From NCBI GenBank assembly GCA_903847975.1, contig CAINFC010000125.1, forward strand, positions 1-49,855: DNA of 49,855 nucleotides, read 5' to 3'. The notes under the pieces are model-generated. The model made no database searches, was not told where the DNA came from, and worked only from the letters and a program-made list of their open reading frames with translations. Positions 30,645-49,855 of this stretch are shown in pieces. The position numbers were made by a program, and so were the translations under genes. Source of the DNA: an uncultured Acidobacteriota bacterium (GTDB lineage: Bacteria > Acidobacteriota > UBA6911 > CAINFC01). The number at the start of each line of letters is the position of its first letter. The stretch's first letter is position 1.

Positions 30645-33600
30645 ATGAAACGCTGGCTGGTCAAGTTACTTCAAAGCAGTTGCTGGACTGCCTTACTGGT
30701 CATGACGGCCGCCTCATTTTTACCGGGGCAGGTTGTCTCCATCCGGCTGGAAGGGGTGGTGAGCGATCCGAGTCAGGCTGTGGTCCCGGGCGCAGCGGCC
30801 ACCGCCAGAAACGTCGCCACCAACATCTCCTACCAGGCCGTCACCAACGAGGCGGGGCGGTATGTCTTCGTCACGCTGCCGCCGGGACCCTACTCCCTGA
30901 CCGTATCCCTGCCCGGCTTCAAGAAGGCCGTGCGCGACGGCATCGCTTTGAAAGTGGGCGACGCGATTACCATCAACATGATCCTCGAGCCGGGAGGGAC
31001 CCACGAGATCGTAACCGTGACGGAGCAGGCCCCCTTGCTGGACCAGACCACGGCCAAGCTGGGAGCGGTAATCGAACATCGGCAGACGCAGGAATTGCCG
31101 CTGCCGGACCGCAACACCCTCATGTTGTACTACCTGGCGTCCGGCATGAACGTTTACGATCGCATGGCAGGCAGCGGCAGCCAGCAGCAGGTCGGCGGTG
31201 CGGATGGCCTGGCGCCCCACACCGGCAACACCAAGGTCGAAGGGGTCTTCGCGAGTCATGCCGACTTCGACTTCTCGCCGGCGGACATAGCAGTTCCCAT
31301 ACCGCAGGAAGCGATGGGAGAATATCGCATTACTACCTCCGGCGGGCTACCCGATACCGGTCGCGGATCGGGCGCACAGGTTTCCGTTTCCCTCAAATCC
31401 GGGACCAACAATTTTCACGGCTCGCTGTTCGAATTCAACCGCAACGAGGCCTACAACGCCAATACCTTTTTTAATAATCGGGCCGGCACTCCGCGGTCGT
31501 CTTTCAAGCGCAATCAATTCGGGTGGAGCCTCGGCGGGCCGATCATCCGGAATCGCACCTTCTTCTTCGGCACCATGGAATGGGACCGTCGCAAAGCGTC
31601 TTCCGTCCAAAACTACACCGTCTACACACAGACTTTGCGCGACGGCATTTTCCGTTACCATACGCAAGGTCCAAACTCCGGGTCGAATGTCGACGGCAGC
31701 GGAAATCCGCGCGTGCCTTTCGGAACCATCAACCTCCTCACGGTGGACCCGACGCGCCAGGGCAAAGACACTTTCTTCCTGCCGAAGCTATTGGCAGCCA
31801 TGCCTCTGCCCAATAATTACGATGTCGGCGACGGCTTCAATCTGGGCGGTTACCGTTTTCTGGCGCCGGCCAGCACCCCTTCCGACCAACAGTTGTTCAA
31901 GATCGATCATAAGTTTTCGGCCCGTCATCAGCTGGCGATTTCGGCCTCAAGATCGGTGATCACGGTTCCCTACAACTTTCTGATTACCGGGAAACCGGGA
32001 GAAATTTACCAGACCCGCAAGAGAGGCATACAGCTGCGCCTGGTCTCAACCTTCACGACCCGGTTTATCAACGAGTTGAGCGTCGGCGGCAATCGCGTGT
32101 GGTTCAAAAGCCGGGTGCAGACGGATCAGGAAACCCCGACCGGCGGTGTTTACCCCAGCGGATTGAGCGGCAATTACCTTTATGTACAAAACCGCGGGCT
32201 CCAAAGTAATCCCGGTGTCAACCTGGGTTTCTCCGACGGAGTGACCTGGATTAAAGGGAACCACACCATGAGCTTCGGCGGAGAAAGCTGGCTGCAAACC
32301 CTGAATATCAAGGTTGGCGCCGGAGGATGGCCATCCATAGACACTTCCAATGCGAGCAATCCGGCCAATGTACCCGCGCTGCCCGGCCTCAACCCTACGG
32401 ATCGAGGCCGGGCTCAGCAACTGACCAACGACCTCACCGGCGCCATCGGCAACATCCGCCAGAGTTTCTTCCTCACCGATAAAACCGGTTACGCTCCCTA
32501 CGGTCCTTCGTACATGCCCATCCATAATGTCGAATGGTCCCTGTACATGCAGGACCTCTGGAAGGTAATGCCGAATTTCTCGTTGAGCCTGGGCTGGCGT
32601 TTCGAGGTGCTGCCCCTCGGATACATGGCCAACGACATCTACATACAGCCGGTGGGCGGCGTTGCCGGGGCGCTGGGCATCCAGGGACCGACGGGACAGC
32701 CGACCCGCTTCGGCCTGGTTGCCGATAAGGGCCGCGCGGCCCATCCCACCGACAGGAATAACTTTGCGCCGTATCTGGGTTTCTCCTGGGACCCATTCGC
32801 AAAAGGCAGGACGACGATCAGCGGCTATTACCGGATCTCCTATGACCGCTCCATGTTGATTACCCAGGCGTTATTCTCCAGTATCAATTACGGCGCCACC
32901 ACCACGGTAACTCTCAATCCGTTCGCGCGACTGTCGGATCCCAACCTCTATAAAACCATCCTTCCGATTCCCGTACCGCAGGTCTTTGCTCCCCTGGGCT
33001 TCACGCGCGACAGCACGGCTTACGCTCTGGACCCCAACCTGGCAACGCCTTATGTGCAGGGCTGGTCTCTGCGGATCGGACAGCAGGTGGGCAGGAATTG
33101 GAACGTCGAAGCGGCTTACGTCGGCAACCACGCTGTCGGCCAATGGCAGGCTCCGAACCTGAATCAGGTCGAAATGCGGAAAAACGGTTTCCTCGACGCG
33201 TTCAAGATCGCCCAAGGCAACCTGGCCCAAAACGGCAGCCCCACCAAAGGAGCGAGCCTGGGCAGCCTGACATCCCTGTTTACCCTGATACCCTCCAGCC
33301 AATTTACCTTGATTGCCCAGGGGCAGGCGGCCGCACTGGCCAACTTTCTCGACACAACCCCTCTGACGACCGGGAATCGAGGCGGATTGATCGAGCTGGC
33401 CGGGCTTCCGGCGACCTTCTTCCGCTTCAATCCTCAAGTCCTCCATTTGAACGTGATCGGCAACACCTCCCATTCCACCTATGATGCTCTGAAACTGAGC
33501 GTTACCAGGCGGTTCGCCGCCGGTTTGTTTCTGCAGGGAAACTATACCCTCGCCAAGGGCTTTACCAATTATGTTCCCAACCAGAGTGTCCAATTTGCTT

Positions 33601-34214
33601 ATCGCGATAATGCCAATCCGCATCTCGACAAGGCGCTCTCGCCCTATAACGCCCTTCACACAGTGGTCGCCAACTGGCTGTACGAACTGCCTTTCGGCAA
33701 GGACAAACGGTTCCTCCATGGGACGTCCCGCCTCCTGCAGGGCTTCCTCGGCGGATGGCAGGTCAATGGGATCTTCAACTGGGCTACCGGCCGCCCGCTA
33801 GCGATTACGACCAACAGGGCCTACCTCAATCAAAATGTCGCCAGCACTCCGAACTTCAGCGGCGATCGCTTCGATCTGTCGAAACCTTTCGACGACGGAT
33901 CCCGGATCATTACCCTTACGCCCGCCCGGCAGGCGCAATTGAGCAATCCGGGTCCCGGCGAGGCCGGGAACCTGCCGAGGTACTCTCTACGCGGTCCCGG
34001 AATCGTTACTTTCGACATGAGCATGTTTAAGAACTTCCCGGTGGAACTGGCCGGCCGAGGGATAAAGGCTCAATTCCGCCTGGAACTGTTCAATGTTTTC
34101 AACAAGGTGAACTTCCTGAATCCCAACGTGGATATCAATAGCGGAAGTTTCGGCGTGGTCACCAGCGCCTGGTCGCCCAGAATGGGACAGATTGCACTGA
34201 AGATCCTGTTCTAG
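30645..34214 (+). CDS. Oar-like TonB-dependent outer-membrane receptor
   Basis: A 1189-residue protein. A signal peptide (about 1-29) is followed by a carboxypeptidase-regulatory-like domain (about 33-115, with GVVSDPSQAVVPGA and YVFVTLPPGPYSL). Then come a plug (about 125-250, with QELPLPDRN and VSLKSGTNNFHGSLFEF) and a long beta-barrel ending in LKILF with terminal Phe. This layout is abundant in Acidobacteriota, where such receptors are thought to import oligosaccharides or peptides. No SusD-like lipoprotein is beside it. The ribosome site is weak. The palindrome at 30500-30521 may regulate it. A GH78 relic lies downstream. Confidence 0.93.
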   Translation: MKRWLVKLLQSSCWTALLVMTAASFLPGQVVSIRLEGVVSDPSQAVVPGAAATARNVATNISYQAVTNEAGRYVFVTLPPGPYSLTVSLPGFKKAVRDGIALKVGDAITINMILEPGGTHEIVTVTEQAPLLDQTTAKLGAVIEHRQTQELPLPDRNTLMLYYLASGMNVYDRMAGSGSQQQVGGADGLAPHTGNTKVEGVFASHADFDFSPADIAVPIPQEAMGEYRITTSGGLPDTGRGSGAQVSVSLKSGTNNFHGSLFEFNRNEAYNANTFFNNRAGTPRSSFKRNQFGWSLGGPIIRNRTFFFGTMEWDRRKASSVQNYTVYTQTLRDGIFRYHTQGPNSGSNVDGSGNPRVPFGTINLLTVDPTRQGKDTFFLPKLLAAMPLPNNYDVGDGFNLGGYRFLAPASTPSDQQLFKIDHKFSARHQLAISASRSVITVPYNFLITGKPGEIYQTRKRGIQLRLVSTFTTRFINELSVGGNRVWFKSRVQTDQETPTGGVYPSGLSGNYLYVQNRGLQSNPGVNLGFSDGVTWIKGNHTMSFGGESWLQTLNIKVGAGGWPSIDTSNASNPANVPALPGLNPTDRGRAQQLTNDLTGAIGNIRQSFFLTDKTGYAPYGPSYMPIHNVEWSLYMQDLWKVMPNFSLSLGWRFEVLPLGYMANDIYIQPVGGVAGALGIQGPTGQPTRFGLVADKGRAAHPTDRNNFAPYLGFSWDPFAKGRTTISGYYRISYDRSMLITQALFSSINYGATTTVTLNPFARLSDPNLYKTILPIPVPQVFAPLGFTRDSTAYALDPNLATPYVQGWSLRIGQQVGRNWNVEAAYVGNHAVGQWQAPNLNQVEMRKNGFLDAFKIAQGNLAQNGSPTKGASLGSLTSLFTLIPSSQFTLIAQGQAAALANFLDTTPLTTGNRGGLIELAGLPATFFRFNPQVLHLNVIGNTSHSTYDALKLSVTRRFAAGLFLQGNYTLAKGFTNYVPNQSVQFAYRDNANPHLDKALSPYNALHTVVANWLYELPFGKDKRFLHGTSRLLQGFLGGWQVNGIFNWATGRPLAITTNRAYLNQNVASTPNFSGDRFDLSKPFDDGSRIITLTPARQAQLSNPGPGEAGNLPRYSLRGPGIVTFDMSMFKNFPVELAGRGIKAQFRLELFNVFNKVNFLNPNVDINSGSFGVVTSAWSPRMGQIALKILF

Positions 34215-44721: not shown

Positions 44722-46755
44722 ATGATTCTGTTTGCGGCAACGACCTTTTTATCCTCCATCCTCCTGTTTTTCGTGCAGCCCCTGATCGCCCGGATGATCC
44801 TGCCCTGGTTCGGTGGGGCGGCTGCCGTCTGGATCACCTGCCTGGTTTTTTTCCAGGTGGTTTTGCTCCTGGGCTACTTCTACGCCCACCTGCTGGTGTC
44901 GCGGCATTCCCCGGCAAGACAGCGCCTGGTACACGCCTCCCTTCTGCTCTGCGCCCTGTGGCTCCTCCCTCTGGCGCCAACCCTGGCAGGAAGAATGCCG
45001 GATGCCGGCACACCGGTTCCCGACATCCTCCGCGTGCTGTTCGGCTCCGTCGCTCTCCCCTTTTTCCTGCTTTCTTCCACCAGCCCCCTCCTGCAGTCCT
45101 GGTATGCGAAGGAAAAAGGGAGCCGGCTGCCGTATCGCCTTTACGCCCTTTCCAATCTGGCCTCCCTGGCCGGCCTGGTCTCCTATCCTTTTCTTATCGA
45201 ACCCTATTTTTCGCTTTCCGCCCAGTCGCGATTCTGGTCCGCGGGCTTTGCCCTGTTCGTCCTTTCCTGCCTGGCGGCCGGGTATCTCGGCGGCCGCGGA
45301 ACGTACTGCGCGGATCCGCGGGAGCCGGGCCCGTCCGGGGACGGCGCCGAAATTCCGTCGCCGGCGGTTTCCGACCGGATTCTCTGGCTGCTGCTTTCCG
45401 GCTGCGCCTCCATCCTGCTGCTGGCGGTAACCAACCACCTGACCCAGAACGTCTCCTCGGTCCCCTTTTTGTGGATACTGCCGCTCGGGCTGTACCTCGT
45501 CACCCTGTCGCTGGCCTTTGACCGCCCGCTCTGGTATCCGCGCCGGATCTACCTCTTGGCGGGCCTGGCGGCCGTCGGGGTCATGTCCTATGGCCTGCAT
45601 TACTGGGTGTCCAACGCCAAGCTCTGGGTTCTGGTACCGGCCTACGGCGGGGGGCTGTTCGTGTGCTGCATGATCTGCCACGGAGAGCTGGCCCGCAGCA
45701 AGCCGGCGGCAGGACATCTCACCTCCTTTTACCTGCAGCTTGCGCTGGGAGGGGCTCTGGGGGGAATCCTGGTCGGCCTGGCCGCCCCGACTTTCCTCTC
45801 CGGCTTTTACGAGCTCCCCCTCGGCCTATTGCTGTTTGCCGGAATTCTCTTTCTGGTGCACCGGGGGAAGAGGATCCTGCTTGACCTCTTCCTGGGGGCC
45901 GCATGGATTGCCGTGCTGGCCGCCACGGTCGGACATATACGCGCCCACCGGCTGGACACCATCCACCAGGTGCGGAATTTTTACGGCACGCTGCGGGTCT
46001 ATGTGGAATTCAAGGGAACCAGCCTCGAGTACCGCAAGCTGGTCAACGGCGAGATCAACCATGGAGAGCAGTTCGTGGCCGCCGACCGGCGCCGCCTTCC
46101 GCTCACCTATTACAGCGAAACCTCCGGCGTGGGGCGTGCCATACGCTGGCTGCAAAAGCGGGGGGCCATGCAGACGGCGGTCATCGGCCTGGGGGTCGGC
46201 ACTCTGGCTTCCTACCAGCGCCCGGGAGACGAGCTGACTTTTTTCGACATCAATCCAGCGGTGGAGCCGATTGCCCGGAAATATTTCAGCTACCTGGCGG
46301 ATTCCCCGGGGCGAATAGGCATCGTCGAGGGAGACGGCCGCCTTTCCCTGCAGCAGATGGCCGGCCGGACCTTTGACCTGATTGCCGTCGACGCCTTTTC
46401 CAGCGATGCCATCCCGGTTCATCTGCTTACGCGGCAGGCCGTCGATCTTTACTTCCAGCGGCTCAAGCCGCATGGCCTGCTGGCCCTGCACATATCCAAC
46501 AAGCATCTCAATCTGCAGCCGGTGGTGGCCGCCATCTGCCGGGCATCGAAAAAGTCCTGCCTGCTGGTGGATGATGCTGAGGAAACCGACCGGATGGAAA
46601 ACTTCGGAACCGACTGGGCGATCGCCGCCCGGGACATGAGCTTTGCCGAATCGACCGAATTCCGCGACGTCTCCGAGCCGCTGGAGTTCCGGAGCACGAT
46701 CGAGCCCTGGACCGACGATTTCAACAACCTGATCACCATCCTGAAGCGCGACTGA
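44722..46755 (+). CDS. Membrane-fused spermidine-synthase-like protein
   Basis: A 677-residue protein. About thirteen hydrophobic segments fill residues 1-430, beginning LSSILLFFVQPLIARMILPWFGG, a hallmark of the fused MFS/spermidine-synthase family. The C-terminal 240 residues form an aminopropyltransferase-like Rossmann domain with GLGVGTLASY, FDINPAVEP, EGDGRLSL and VDAFSSDAIPVHLLT. Real spermidine synthase activity has not been shown for most of this family, and the substrate here is unknown. ATG 44722 is chosen because the first membrane segment starts there; the ribosome site is poor. It lies 160 bases before two exported enzymes on the same strand. Confidence 0.88.
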   Translation: MILFAATTFLSSILLFFVQPLIARMILPWFGGAAAVWITCLVFFQVVLLLGYFYAHLLVSRHSPARQRLVHASLLLCALWLLPLAPTLAGRMPDAGTPVPDILRVLFGSVALPFFLLSSTSPLLQSWYAKEKGSRLPYRLYALSNLASLAGLVSYPFLIEPYFSLSAQSRFWSAGFALFVLSCLAAGYLGGRGTYCADPREPGPSGDGAEIPSPAVSDRILWLLLSGCASILLLAVTNHLTQNVSSVPFLWILPLGLYLVTLSLAFDRPLWYPRRIYLLAGLAAVGVMSYGLHYWVSNAKLWVLVPAYGGGLFVCCMICHGELARSKPAAGHLTSFYLQLALGGALGGILVGLAAPTFLSGFYELPLGLLLFAGILFLVHRGKRILLDLFLGAAWIAVLAATVGHIRAHRLDTIHQVRNFYGTLRVYVEFKGTSLEYRKLVNGEINHGEQFVAADRRRLPLTYYSETSGVGRAIRWLQKRGAMQTAVIGLGVGTLASYQRPGDELTFFDINPAVEPIARKYFSYLADSPGRIGIVEGDGRLSLQQMAGRTFDLIAVDAFSSDAIPVHLLTRQAVDLYFQRLKPHGLLALHISNKHLNLQPVVAAICRASKKSCLLVDDAEETDRMENFGTDWAIAARDMSFAESTEFRDVSEPLEFRSTIEPWTDDFNNLITILKRD

Positions 46756-46915
46756 TTTCCAAAAGTGCACCTCGCATCCGCCGCCGGTCTGCGGCACGGG
46801 AAAGCGGGAAGGCCCGGAATCCCTTCGGTTTTTTGCGAAAAACGGTGATAATCTTTCCCGGAAGTCCGGATCTTTTTTCATCCGCAGCCCGGGGTTGCGG
46901 ATCGGGGAGGTACTG

Positions 46916-48280
46916 ATGCAGATGCGGAAACGACTGGGTAGATCTACCCTTATGATTTTGCTGGCCTGCGCTGCCGCGCACGCCGTCTTCGGCCAGTCCG
47001 AGAGGATTCGTAATCCCGGCCTGCAGATGGCCGAGGGATCCGTCCTTCCCGTCGGGTGGACGGAGTGGAAGCCGGAGGTGACCTCTGCCGCCTGCCGGCT
47101 GCAGAGGTCTGCGGACGGGCTGCAGATGGATGCGCCGGATGCTCCTTTCGGTGTCGGCGGAATCCACCAGGAGATCGAAGGGATCGAGGGCGGGAAATCC
47201 TATGCGGTCGAGGTCAATTCTTCCTTCCGGAATCTTTCCAGCCCCTACCGTTCCGTCCTGGTCCGGCTGACCTGGCGGCGGGGGGCCAGATCCCTGCATC
47301 CCGCGGGGGACATGTTGAGCGGGAAGACGCTTCCGGGAGGCAGGCTTCTGTTCCAGGGCTTGCGGACGGCACCCGCCGGGGCGGACCGGGCGGAAATCTC
47401 CCTGGAGCTGAAGTGGCCCCGGGGCGGATCGGTGACCTGGGAGAAGGTCAGCCTGAAGGAGTCGGAGCCCGTTCCCTCGAGGAAAGTGAAAATCGGCACG
47501 GCCTACCTTCGGCCGCAGCAGAGCGACCCGGAGCGCAACCTGGAGCTCTTTGCAGAGCAGATCCGGGAGGCCGGCCGGCTGGGCCTCGATATTCTCTGCC
47601 TCGCGGAAGCCATTCTGGCTGTGGGCACCAGGCAGAGCGGCCCGCAGACAGCCGAGCCTATTCCGGGGCCGTCGACGGAAAGGCTGGGGCGGGAAGCGGC
47701 CGCCAGTCGGATCTGGGTGGTCGCCGGGCTTTACGAGAAAGAAGGCGCTGCCATTTACAACACCGCCGTGCTGCTGGATCGCCAGGGCCGCCTGGCCGGA
47801 AAGTACCGCAAGGTGCACCTGCCGCGGGAAGAGTGGCGTCTCGGGATCACCCCGGGAACCGACTACCCCGTGTTCCGAACCGACTTCGGGGTGGTGGCCA
47901 TACAGATCTGCTATGACTGGTTTTTTCCGGAGGTCGCTTCCATCTGGAGGCTCAAGGGAGCGGAAATCGTGCTGGCTCCCACCTGGGGAACCACCTTCCC
48001 GGACCAGGAAGGCCGGGTGGAGGGGGAGAGCGTATTTCGCGTGCGGGCCCGCGACGGCTCCGTTTACCTGGTTCCCTCGGTGTACGACGGCAGCAGCATG
48101 GTCATCGATCCGCTGGGGCGGGTCCTGGTGTCCAACCGCTGCCGGACCGGGGTCTTCTGGGCCGAGGCGGATCTCTCCCGGAGAGAACCTTTGCCCTGGG
48201 TGGGAGACTGGCGCGATGTAGGGCCGCGGGACCGCATGCCTTCCGGCTATTCGCTCCTGCGAGAGGATCCCCATAAATGA
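46916..48280 (+). CDS. Exported carbon-nitrogen hydrolase (nitrilase superfamily) with N-terminal sandwich domain
   Basis: A 454-residue protein; ATG 46916 lies five bases behind GGGGAGGT. A signal peptide ends near AVFGQ (about residue 26). Residues about 27-185 resemble a CBM4_9-like jelly roll (RNPGLQ..LPVGWTEW at its start). The C-terminal domain (about 190-445) is an amidase/nitrilase with the catalytic triad Glu231 (LAEAI), Lys299 (YRKVHLP) and Cys332 (QICYDW). Most nitrilases are cytoplasmic, so export plus a possible binding domain is notable. The substrate is unknown. The stop overlaps the next start (ATGA). Confidence 0.87.
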   Translation: MQMRKRLGRSTLMILLACAAAHAVFGQSERIRNPGLQMAEGSVLPVGWTEWKPEVTSAACRLQRSADGLQMDAPDAPFGVGGIHQEIEGIEGGKSYAVEVNSSFRNLSSPYRSVLVRLTWRRGARSLHPAGDMLSGKTLPGGRLLFQGLRTAPAGADRAEISLELKWPRGGSVTWEKVSLKESEPVPSRKVKIGTAYLRPQQSDPERNLELFAEQIREAGRLGLDILCLAEAILAVGTRQSGPQTAEPIPGPSTERLGREAAASRIWVVAGLYEKEGAAIYNTAVLLDRQGRLAGKYRKVHLPREEWRLGITPGTDYPVFRTDFGVVAIQICYDWFFPEVASIWRLKGAEIVLAPTWGTTFPDQEGRVEGESVFRVRARDGSVYLVPSVYDGSSMVIDPLGRVLVSNRCRTGVFWAEADLSRREPLPWVGDWRDVGPRDRMPSGYSLLREDPHK

Positions 48281-49560
48281 AAGCCGGGATCGGCGCTCTG
48301 CTGCTGCTCCTGCTCTGTGCCGGCACGGGTCGCGGGCAGACGGCCCGCCGCATCCGCTTTGCCGATCTGCCCCCCGGCTGGGAGGAATCGGAATCTTCCC
48401 TGGAAAGCACGCTCCGGGATCTGGAGCAGCGCACCAGGGAGCGGTTCCGGGAAGGTGAAAGCGATCACCTGGTCGCCTATCTGCTGCAATCGAAACAGTT
48501 CACGGCTGAGCCGGCCATCGAGCCCGCGCTCAGCGCATGGGAATATCTCGGCGATGGGCGCCGGGAAGCGATGCTGCCGGCCGGAGTCGAGCGGCGCGCA
48601 GACGATTTCCTGAGGGCTTCTCCCGGCAAAGACCCCCGCCTGGCGTACTTTCAGAAGCTCGCCGGCAGCGGGGGGAAAGACTTCCTACGCTCCGCGTATG
48701 ACCGCTGTATGCGCTTTCTCCTGGAAAAGGAGCAGCGCCAGGAGAGGGGCCAGGCGCCGGCCGATCTCTACCGCGAGCGCGGGCTGTCGGTCGACACCCA
48801 GGTGGAGGCGGGCTTTGCCGTCTGGACCGGACTGGCGGTTCAGCAGTCGCTGCAGCCCGAATGGCGCGCCGACCGGGTCCTGATCGTCGGGCCCGGTCTG
48901 GACCTGGCCCCGCGCACCGGGATGCTGGAGCTCTTCCCGCCGCAGAGCTATCAGCCCTTTGCCGTCGCGGATGCCCTGCTGTCGCTGGGCCTGGCTCGCC
49001 GCGACCGGCTTCGGATACACTGCCTGGACATCCATCCCCTGGTAGTCGATTTTTTCGGGGGTTTTTCGAAGCGCTCCGAGCCCCTGCTGCATCTCGTCTC
49101 GGGGCTGCGGCGCGAGCAGCTTTCCTCCGACTTTGAGGAATACTTCCGCCGCCTGGGCGGAAGTATCGGCCGCGAGCAGAGCCTGCGCCTTCCCCCGCCG
49201 CTGGCCGGGCACCTGGGCAAAGCCCTGCGGATCGAGAATGACGTCGCCCGGGGGGTGACCGCCGACCGGATCAATATCCTCACCGGGCGGCTGGATCCCT
49301 CGCCGGGGTACGACCTGGCGGTGGCCACCAACATCCTGGTCTACTTCGACGCCCGGGAACTGCGGCTGGCTCTGGCCAATATCGGCTCGATGCTGCGCCC
49401 GGGGGGCATTCTGCTGCACAACGAGGTGCGTCCGGAAATCGACGCCATCGCCGCGGCACTGGGGCTGATCCCGGTGCAGGGCCGCGTGGTGAGGCTTTCG
49501 CCGGAAGCCGGGTCCGGAAAACCGCTCCTCGACTCCTTCGTCCTCCACCGCCGCCGCTAG
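48277..49560 (+). CDS. SAM-methyltransferase-fold protein with signal peptide
   Basis: A 427-residue protein. The first 20 residues (GIGALLLLLLCAGTGRG) are a clear signal peptide or short anchor. Residues about 40-190 are helical and unrecognised. The C-terminal part has methyltransferase-like motifs: VLIVGPGLDLAPRTG (motif I region), HCLDIHP, LAVATNILVYFD (CheR-like motif) and LRPGGILLHNE. A methyltransferase outside the cytoplasm would lack SAM, so it may be anchored facing inward, bind another ligand or be catalytically repurposed. Translation is coupled to the nitrilase-family gene. Confidence 0.72.
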   Translation: MKAGIGALLLLLLCAGTGRGQTARRIRFADLPPGWEESESSLESTLRDLEQRTRERFREGESDHLVAYLLQSKQFTAEPAIEPALSAWEYLGDGRREAMLPAGVERRADDFLRASPGKDPRLAYFQKLAGSGGKDFLRSAYDRCMRFLLEKEQRQERGQAPADLYRERGLSVDTQVEAGFAVWTGLAVQQSLQPEWRADRVLIVGPGLDLAPRTGMLELFPPQSYQPFAVADALLSLGLARRDRLRIHCLDIHPLVVDFFGGFSKRSEPLLHLVSGLRREQLSSDFEEYFRRLGGSIGREQSLRLPPPLAGHLGKALRIENDVARGVTADRINILTGRLDPSPGYDLAVATNILVYFDARELRLALANIGSMLRPGGILLHNEVRPEIDAIAAALGLIPVQGRVVRLSPEAGSGKPLLDSFVLHRRR

Positions 49561-49640: not shown

Positions 49641-49855
49641 GGAACCCCAAAGGGGTTCCGGAACACAGCACGCGGTTGCGCCGCATAGGCGCTACGCCGG
49701 GTAGGCGGATATTTCACATTCAGCCCTGTATGGGCTGCGCAATACCTGGTATGGCTGGATTTTGCGCAACCCTTTCAGGGTTGTTTCTTCCGAACATCCC
49801 TACCCGGGGTAGGCGCGAAGCGCGCCAACCCCGGGCTGTGTACCGAAGCCCTTTC
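49641..49855 (+). repeat. Composite palindromic repeat, copy C (right end cut by window)
   Basis: It aligns with the reverse complement of copy B over its whole length: GGAACCCC..GGGGTTCC, the GCGCCGCATAGGCGC block, CAGCCCT..GGGCTG, GCGCAACCCTTTCAGGGTTG and the CCCGGGG..GCGCGC..CCCCGGG hairpin. It stops at GAAGCCCTTTC because the window ends. The 80 bases before it (49561-49640) hold no gene, and the left terminal inverted repeat seen in copy B is not recognisable here. Confidence 0.85.

Follow-up and report, generated by a model that had tools for sequence, protein, structure and literature searches.

Gene Organisation at the Contig End

The window, i.e., the whole 49,855-nt stretch of DNA analysed here, is contig C125 of an 8.13-Mb genome in 326 contigs, and this genome is the sole representative of its family among the genomes compared. 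Three ORFs lie on one strand at 44722-49560: a gene for a fused membrane/spermidine-synthase-like protein of 677 aa (44722-46755, +), a gene for a carbon-nitrogen (CN) hydrolase of 454 aa with a predicted signal peptide (46916-48280, +) and a gene for a CheR-like protein of 427 aa with a class I SAM methyltransferase fold (hereafter MT; 48277-49560, +), which is also predicted to be exported. The ATGA overlap reported in an earlier note on this DNA was found at 48277-48280 (+), where the TGA stop of the CN-hydrolase gene shares its bases with the ATG start of the MT gene. That note had also linked the spermidine-synthase-like gene to the other two as lying just upstream; it is indeed on the same strand, but 160 bp separate it from the CN-hydrolase gene, and this gap contains a terminator-like hairpin (46814-46828) followed by TTTTTT (the whole element at 46814-46835, +). 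Two such sites occur in the region, compared to a mean of 0.4 in shuffled sequences. Because of the 160-bp gap and the hairpin with its T run, the spermidine-synthase-like gene is probably a separate unit from the CN-hydrolase and MT genes.

The Membrane-Fused Spermidine-Synthase-Like Protein

A topology check of the 677-aa protein gave 11 predicted membrane (hydrophobic) segments followed by a C-terminal soluble Rossmann domain, which confirms the membrane fusion described previously; the length of 427 residues that had been assigned to the membrane protein is that of the MT. The protein belongs to NF037959, "fused MFS/spermidine synthase" (57.5 bits vs. a cut-off of 40), and scores 13.7 bits against the SpeE equivalog TIGR00417, the cut-off of which is 249.55. 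Relatives of the spermidine synthase were found in 62 of 297 genomes. It is an ordinary NF037959 member with no notable difference from that family, lies outside the conserved pair formed by the MT and a transporter (see below) and is probably unrelated to it.

A CN-Hydrolase with a Signal Peptide

The likely start of the CN-hydrolase is the ATG at 46916, which closely follows a GGAGGT. The N-terminus, MQMRKRLGRSTLMILLACAAAHAVFG followed by Q, has the usual features of a Sec signal peptide (46916-46993, +); similar N-termini are found in the homologues L083-L085 and L087-L089, and most hydrolase homologues begin with a signal-peptide-like sequence. Behind it follow an N-terminal beta-sandwich and a CN_hydrolase domain (PF00795, E = 4.8e-39, 134.7 bits vs. 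a cut-off of 23.2), with the Glu-Lys-Cys triad of the superfamily (47606-47911, +) present as E231 (47606-47608), K299 (47810-47812) and C332 (47909-47911), all three of which are invariant in the alignment. In the structural model (pLDDT 73 overall), the beta-sandwich is of modest confidence; the C-terminal domain resembles the amidases of the nitrilase family. The protein has the triad and the fold in common with the nitrilase-superfamily CN-hydrolases (N-carbamoylputrescine amidase, Nit2), but, unlike these, it carries a signal peptide and an N-terminal beta-sandwich, and no equivalog model scores it above its cut-off. The protein resembles a secreted amidase, which would scavenge amides or ureido compounds. 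Amidase relatives are present in 154 of the 396 same-phylum genomes, about 10 of which also have the N-terminal domain, and no common partner gene was found in the neighbourhoods of the amidase homologues.

A CheR-Like Methyltransferase-Fold Protein with a Signal Peptide

The N-terminus of the MT, MKAGIGALLLLLLCAGTGRGQ followed by T (48277-48339, +), is clearly of the Sec type. Its closest relative, L111 (56% identity), begins with MIAGRPILALMLCLCGSLHGQT, aligns co-linearly with the window MT from the first residue onward and shares its ...GQT junction. A scan of the genome contigs with the single window MT sequence gave no match, and an alignment-based search of the contigs retrieved 154 MT relatives, from which 80 loci were kept. 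The family comprises more than 80 loci, nearly all of them acidobacterial. Within the phylum, relatives at E ≤ 0.001 occur in 39 of 396 genomes, about 20 of them matching over most of the protein and the others being weak matches to the MT domain; in the same class (38 genomes), those searched contained no second MT homologue. A hydropathy rule called signal peptides in 64 of 78 family members, a count that is biased upward by our having picked the starts of the homologues by hydrophobicity and that hinges on the start codon chosen. On average, the N-termini in the family carry a charge of +3.1 on the N-side of the hydrophobic stretch and of +0.3 behind it, and an AxA-like site is found in 90%. 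The signal peptides reported for the amidase and the MT thus recur in the homologues of each.

We then examined the fold of the MT. Its Pfam matches are weak (CheR and Methyltransf_12), with 21.6 bits for CheR (PF01739) against a gathering score of 27; the all-alpha CheR_N domain gave no match at E ≤ 1, and the N-terminal half of the protein is helical and matches no Pfam family. The AF2 model (pLDDT 89.4) is that of a class I methyltransferase with a Rossmann-like fold, and a structure search with this model returned 992 of 1000 chains at Z ≥ 8, the best match being CheR (5ftw; Z 15.7, 193 residues, 3.0 Å). The catalytic half contains SAM motif I, GPGLD (residues 205-209; 48889-48903, +), the acidic residue D251 ending strand 2 at the canonical ribose-binding position (49027-49029, +) and motif IV, DLAVATN (residues 346-352; 49312-49332, +). 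G205, G207, D251, T351 and N352, as well as Y356, are found in 81 of 81 aligned sequences; these SAM-site motifs are thus intact throughout the alignment. Fold and motif order are those of the CheR protein-glutamate methyltransferase (PF01739; 5ftw, 1bc5), and the likeness extends to a D-x-S-type motif II and an FDLxxxTNhhhYYD-type motif IV. Unlike CheR, the MT is predicted to be exported, lies under the Pfam cut-off and has its own all-helical N-terminal region bearing an RGLSxDT motif; it is linked to a TonB-dependent transporter, whereas CheR is linked to chemoreceptors. To our knowledge, no source of SAM outside the bacterial cytoplasm has been established, and the export of an MT is odd for this reason.

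A Dedicated Clade of Oar-Type Transporters as the Partner of the MT

The transporters adjacent to MT genes are Oar-type TonB-dependent proteins with CarboxypepD_reg and OMP_b-brl_4 domains. In the closest subfamily (L111-L134), such a transporter immediately adjoins the MT in 16 of the 18 loci with enough flank, and transporters account for 44% of the sequence up to 2 kb from the MT, compared to 3.4% beyond 5 kb (binomial, 3e-17). The more distant MT subfamily is also enriched, with an adjacent transporter in 21 of 43 loci. Since 17 of the 18 adjacent transporters fall into one clade (median mutual identity of 48%, vs. about 27% to other Oar-like proteins), this adjacency is not a mere consequence of receptor abundance.

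Presence and absence across the genomes agree with the gene order: among 396 genomes, seven have both a close MT and a member of the transporter clade, one (G275) has the transporter without a close MT, none has the MT only and 388 have neither (Fisher, 2.8e-14 by genome and 1.8e-9 by genus, values that ignore phylogeny and are drawn from genomes that are not independent). A mirror-tree comparison, treated as secondary evidence, showed only a weak correlation between the MT and transporter distances (r 0.25), which was reached by 34 of 5000 permutations. In G325, 1.3 Mb separate the two genes; as the orientation of the pair differs between loci, it is not always an operon. Overall, gene order and co-occurrence indicate that Oar-type TonB-dependent transporters of one dedicated clade are the conserved partners of the MT.

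The MT diverges much faster than the transporter, e.g., the transporters of L111 and L123 are about 77% identical, and the MT branches are several times longer. At L131 (7820-10059), the MT gene shares a four-base overlap with an enolase-superfamily (mandelate-racemase-like) gene and follows a dihydrodipicolinate-synthase-like gene.

The Candidate Partner Transporter in the Source Genome

No member of the partner clade adjoins the MT inside the window, and the receptor present there (30645-34214) is outside the clade (about 25% identity). Directly after the MT, the contig ends in a dispersed repeat of about 215 bp (49641-49855, no strand assigned), of which the genome has at least 40 copies. 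The repeat is imperfectly palindromic, with 83-93% identity between copies, some of which are arranged as tandem pairs with a spacing of about 290 bp; contigs end in it, and it is also found at the start of the window contig (1-80).

The clade member of the source genome lies on another contig (C323:1660-5328) and has 72-73% identity to the partners in relatives, compared to 37% for the next paralogue. Its PF25183 barrel (C323:2413-5304) scores 572.7 bits vs. a cut-off of 30, which places it among the Oar-type proteins. C323 is a contig of 6,108 bp with the dispersed repeat of about 215 bp at both ends, and, when it is reversed, the MT (+) would be followed by the transporter (-), the order found in L111, L119 and L123. 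As there is no exact overlap between the ends of C323 and those of the window contig, and as the repeat has so many copies, we infer, rather than read from the assembly, that C323 joins the window contig beside the MT.

Oar-type receptors are very greatly expanded in this genome, with 65 above the Pfam cut-off among those scored and 140 first-look candidates. A GH27-like alpha-galactosidase gene (L207; C323 of the source genome, 200-1640) lies beside the C323 transporter, and another lies beside the transporter-MT pair in L132 (3449-4523). When the synteny of the alpha-galactosidase and a small ORF at the C323 transporter was examined, the galactosidase recurred only in L132; this neighbour may hint at a glycan context.

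Possible Roles of the MT outside the Cytoplasm

We consider it fairly probable that the exported protein with the class I SAM-MT fold acts outside the cytoplasm together with its dedicated Oar-type TonB-dependent outer-membrane transporter. The MT would enter the periplasm through Sec, would bind SAM or a SAM-like ligand and would either modify the cargo of the transporter or be itself the cargo, as is PopC for Oar in Myxococcus. A more specific version, in which SAM-dependent methylation takes place outside the acidobacterial cytoplasm by means of an exported CheR-like enzyme, with its own Oar-type transporter moving the substrate, the cofactor or the enzyme, is conceivable, and we regard it as doubtful.

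The closest known parallel is the Oar/PopC system of Myxococcus xanthus, in which an Oar-type transporter (CarboxypepD_reg, Plug, OMP_b-brl_4) is likewise tied to a non-cytoplasmic protein: PopC, a protease with no signal peptide, is secreted by M. xanthus only when Oar is present, and in E. coli its secretion needs both Oar and the Ton system (PMC6434023). By analogy, the MT could be cargo that the Oar-type transporter secretes across the outer membrane, and it could then act on an extracellular target or on another cell that supplies SAM. The requirement of PopC secretion for Oar, the dedicated transporter clade and the longer branches of the MT tree are consistent with such a role; however, PopC has no signal peptide, whereas the first step of MT secretion would be Sec, and we judge this explanation to be rather unlikely. 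The MT pair also differs from Oar/PopC in that the partner is a signal-peptide methyltransferase and that the two genes are genetically linked.

The fold might also have been recruited for binding an adenosyl-type ligand brought in by the transporter, with no methyl transfer. The dedicated transporter would suit a binding protein or pseudoenzyme of this kind, as would the invariance of the ligand-site residues when no periplasmic SAM is known; but T351-N352 of motif IV and Y356 are kept along with the ribose-binding acid, as they would be in an enzyme, which makes a pure binding role quite unlikely.

For the favoured reading, i.e., action of the MT-fold protein outside the cytoplasm with its transporter, the point of interest is that an exported family, linked to a single transporter clade, retains the SAM site in every aligned member, despite the lack of an established SAM source there. 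The pair defines a two-gene target for asking about SAM chemistry in the envelope, or about protein partners of Oar-type transporters beyond PopC, and gives a lead to the function of one of more than 65 Oar-like receptors in the source genome. The MT family and its dedicated transporter appear to be undescribed in the open papers searched, which cover part of the literature. Our search of the open literature found no paper on a "periplasmic methyltransferase", and the literature on secreted methyltransferases, as searched, concerned pathogen effectors only. The secreted methyltransferases of Plasmodiophora brassicae and M. tuberculosis are likewise sent out of the producing cell and are discussed as hitting host targets, whereas the MT family is mostly from environmental acidobacteria with no known host.

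The Relationship between the Three Genes

The overlap of the amidase and MT genes could mark a true two-enzyme operon of this lineage, in which both exported enzymes would act sequentially on one envelope substrate. A four-base overlap suggests translational coupling, and both proteins are predicted to be exported. However, full-length amidase homologues (10 genomes) and MT homologues (about 100 loci) never adjoin, and in L131 a four-base overlap of this kind joins the MT gene to an unrelated gene of the enolase superfamily, which implies that such overlaps arise opportunistically; we find this operon improbable. Among the loci compared, the amidase adjoins the MT in the source genome only, and, as judged from this comparison, the overlap couples an otherwise separate secreted amidase to the MT in this lineage only.

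The linkage of all three genes was searched for in 396 genomes of the phylum, 38 genomes of the class and 80 named loci. Two of the three genes were not found together in any of 30 flanking regions of up to about 10 kb per side, nor in the 80 named loci or the shorter amidase and spermidine-synthase loci. The earlier note had proposed an envelope system in which the spermidine-synthase-like protein makes an amine that the exported amidase and MT then modify; one strand, the ATGA overlap of two signal-peptide genes and recognisable active-site motifs in all three proteins speak for it, but the lack of a homologous locus with two of the three genes in the 396 same-phylum genomes, the lack of another MT homologue in the class genomes searched and the terminator-like site with the 160-bp gap make it very improbable indeed. 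The modification of a polyamine from the first protein is without support. The MT has a different conserved partner, the Oar-type transporter, and comparison across genomes, the test that the earlier note had itself named as a refutation, indicates that the three neighbours are not a conserved system. The predicted export of the amidase and the MT, with recurring signal peptides and intact motifs, stands, and the joint role of the three genes does not; the observation of export was right, and is more interesting than the three-gene system, which was wrong. TPR proteins adjoin the MT or its transporter in L065, L073, L078 and L216, and some of them have a carboxypeptidase-regulatory-like N-terminus.
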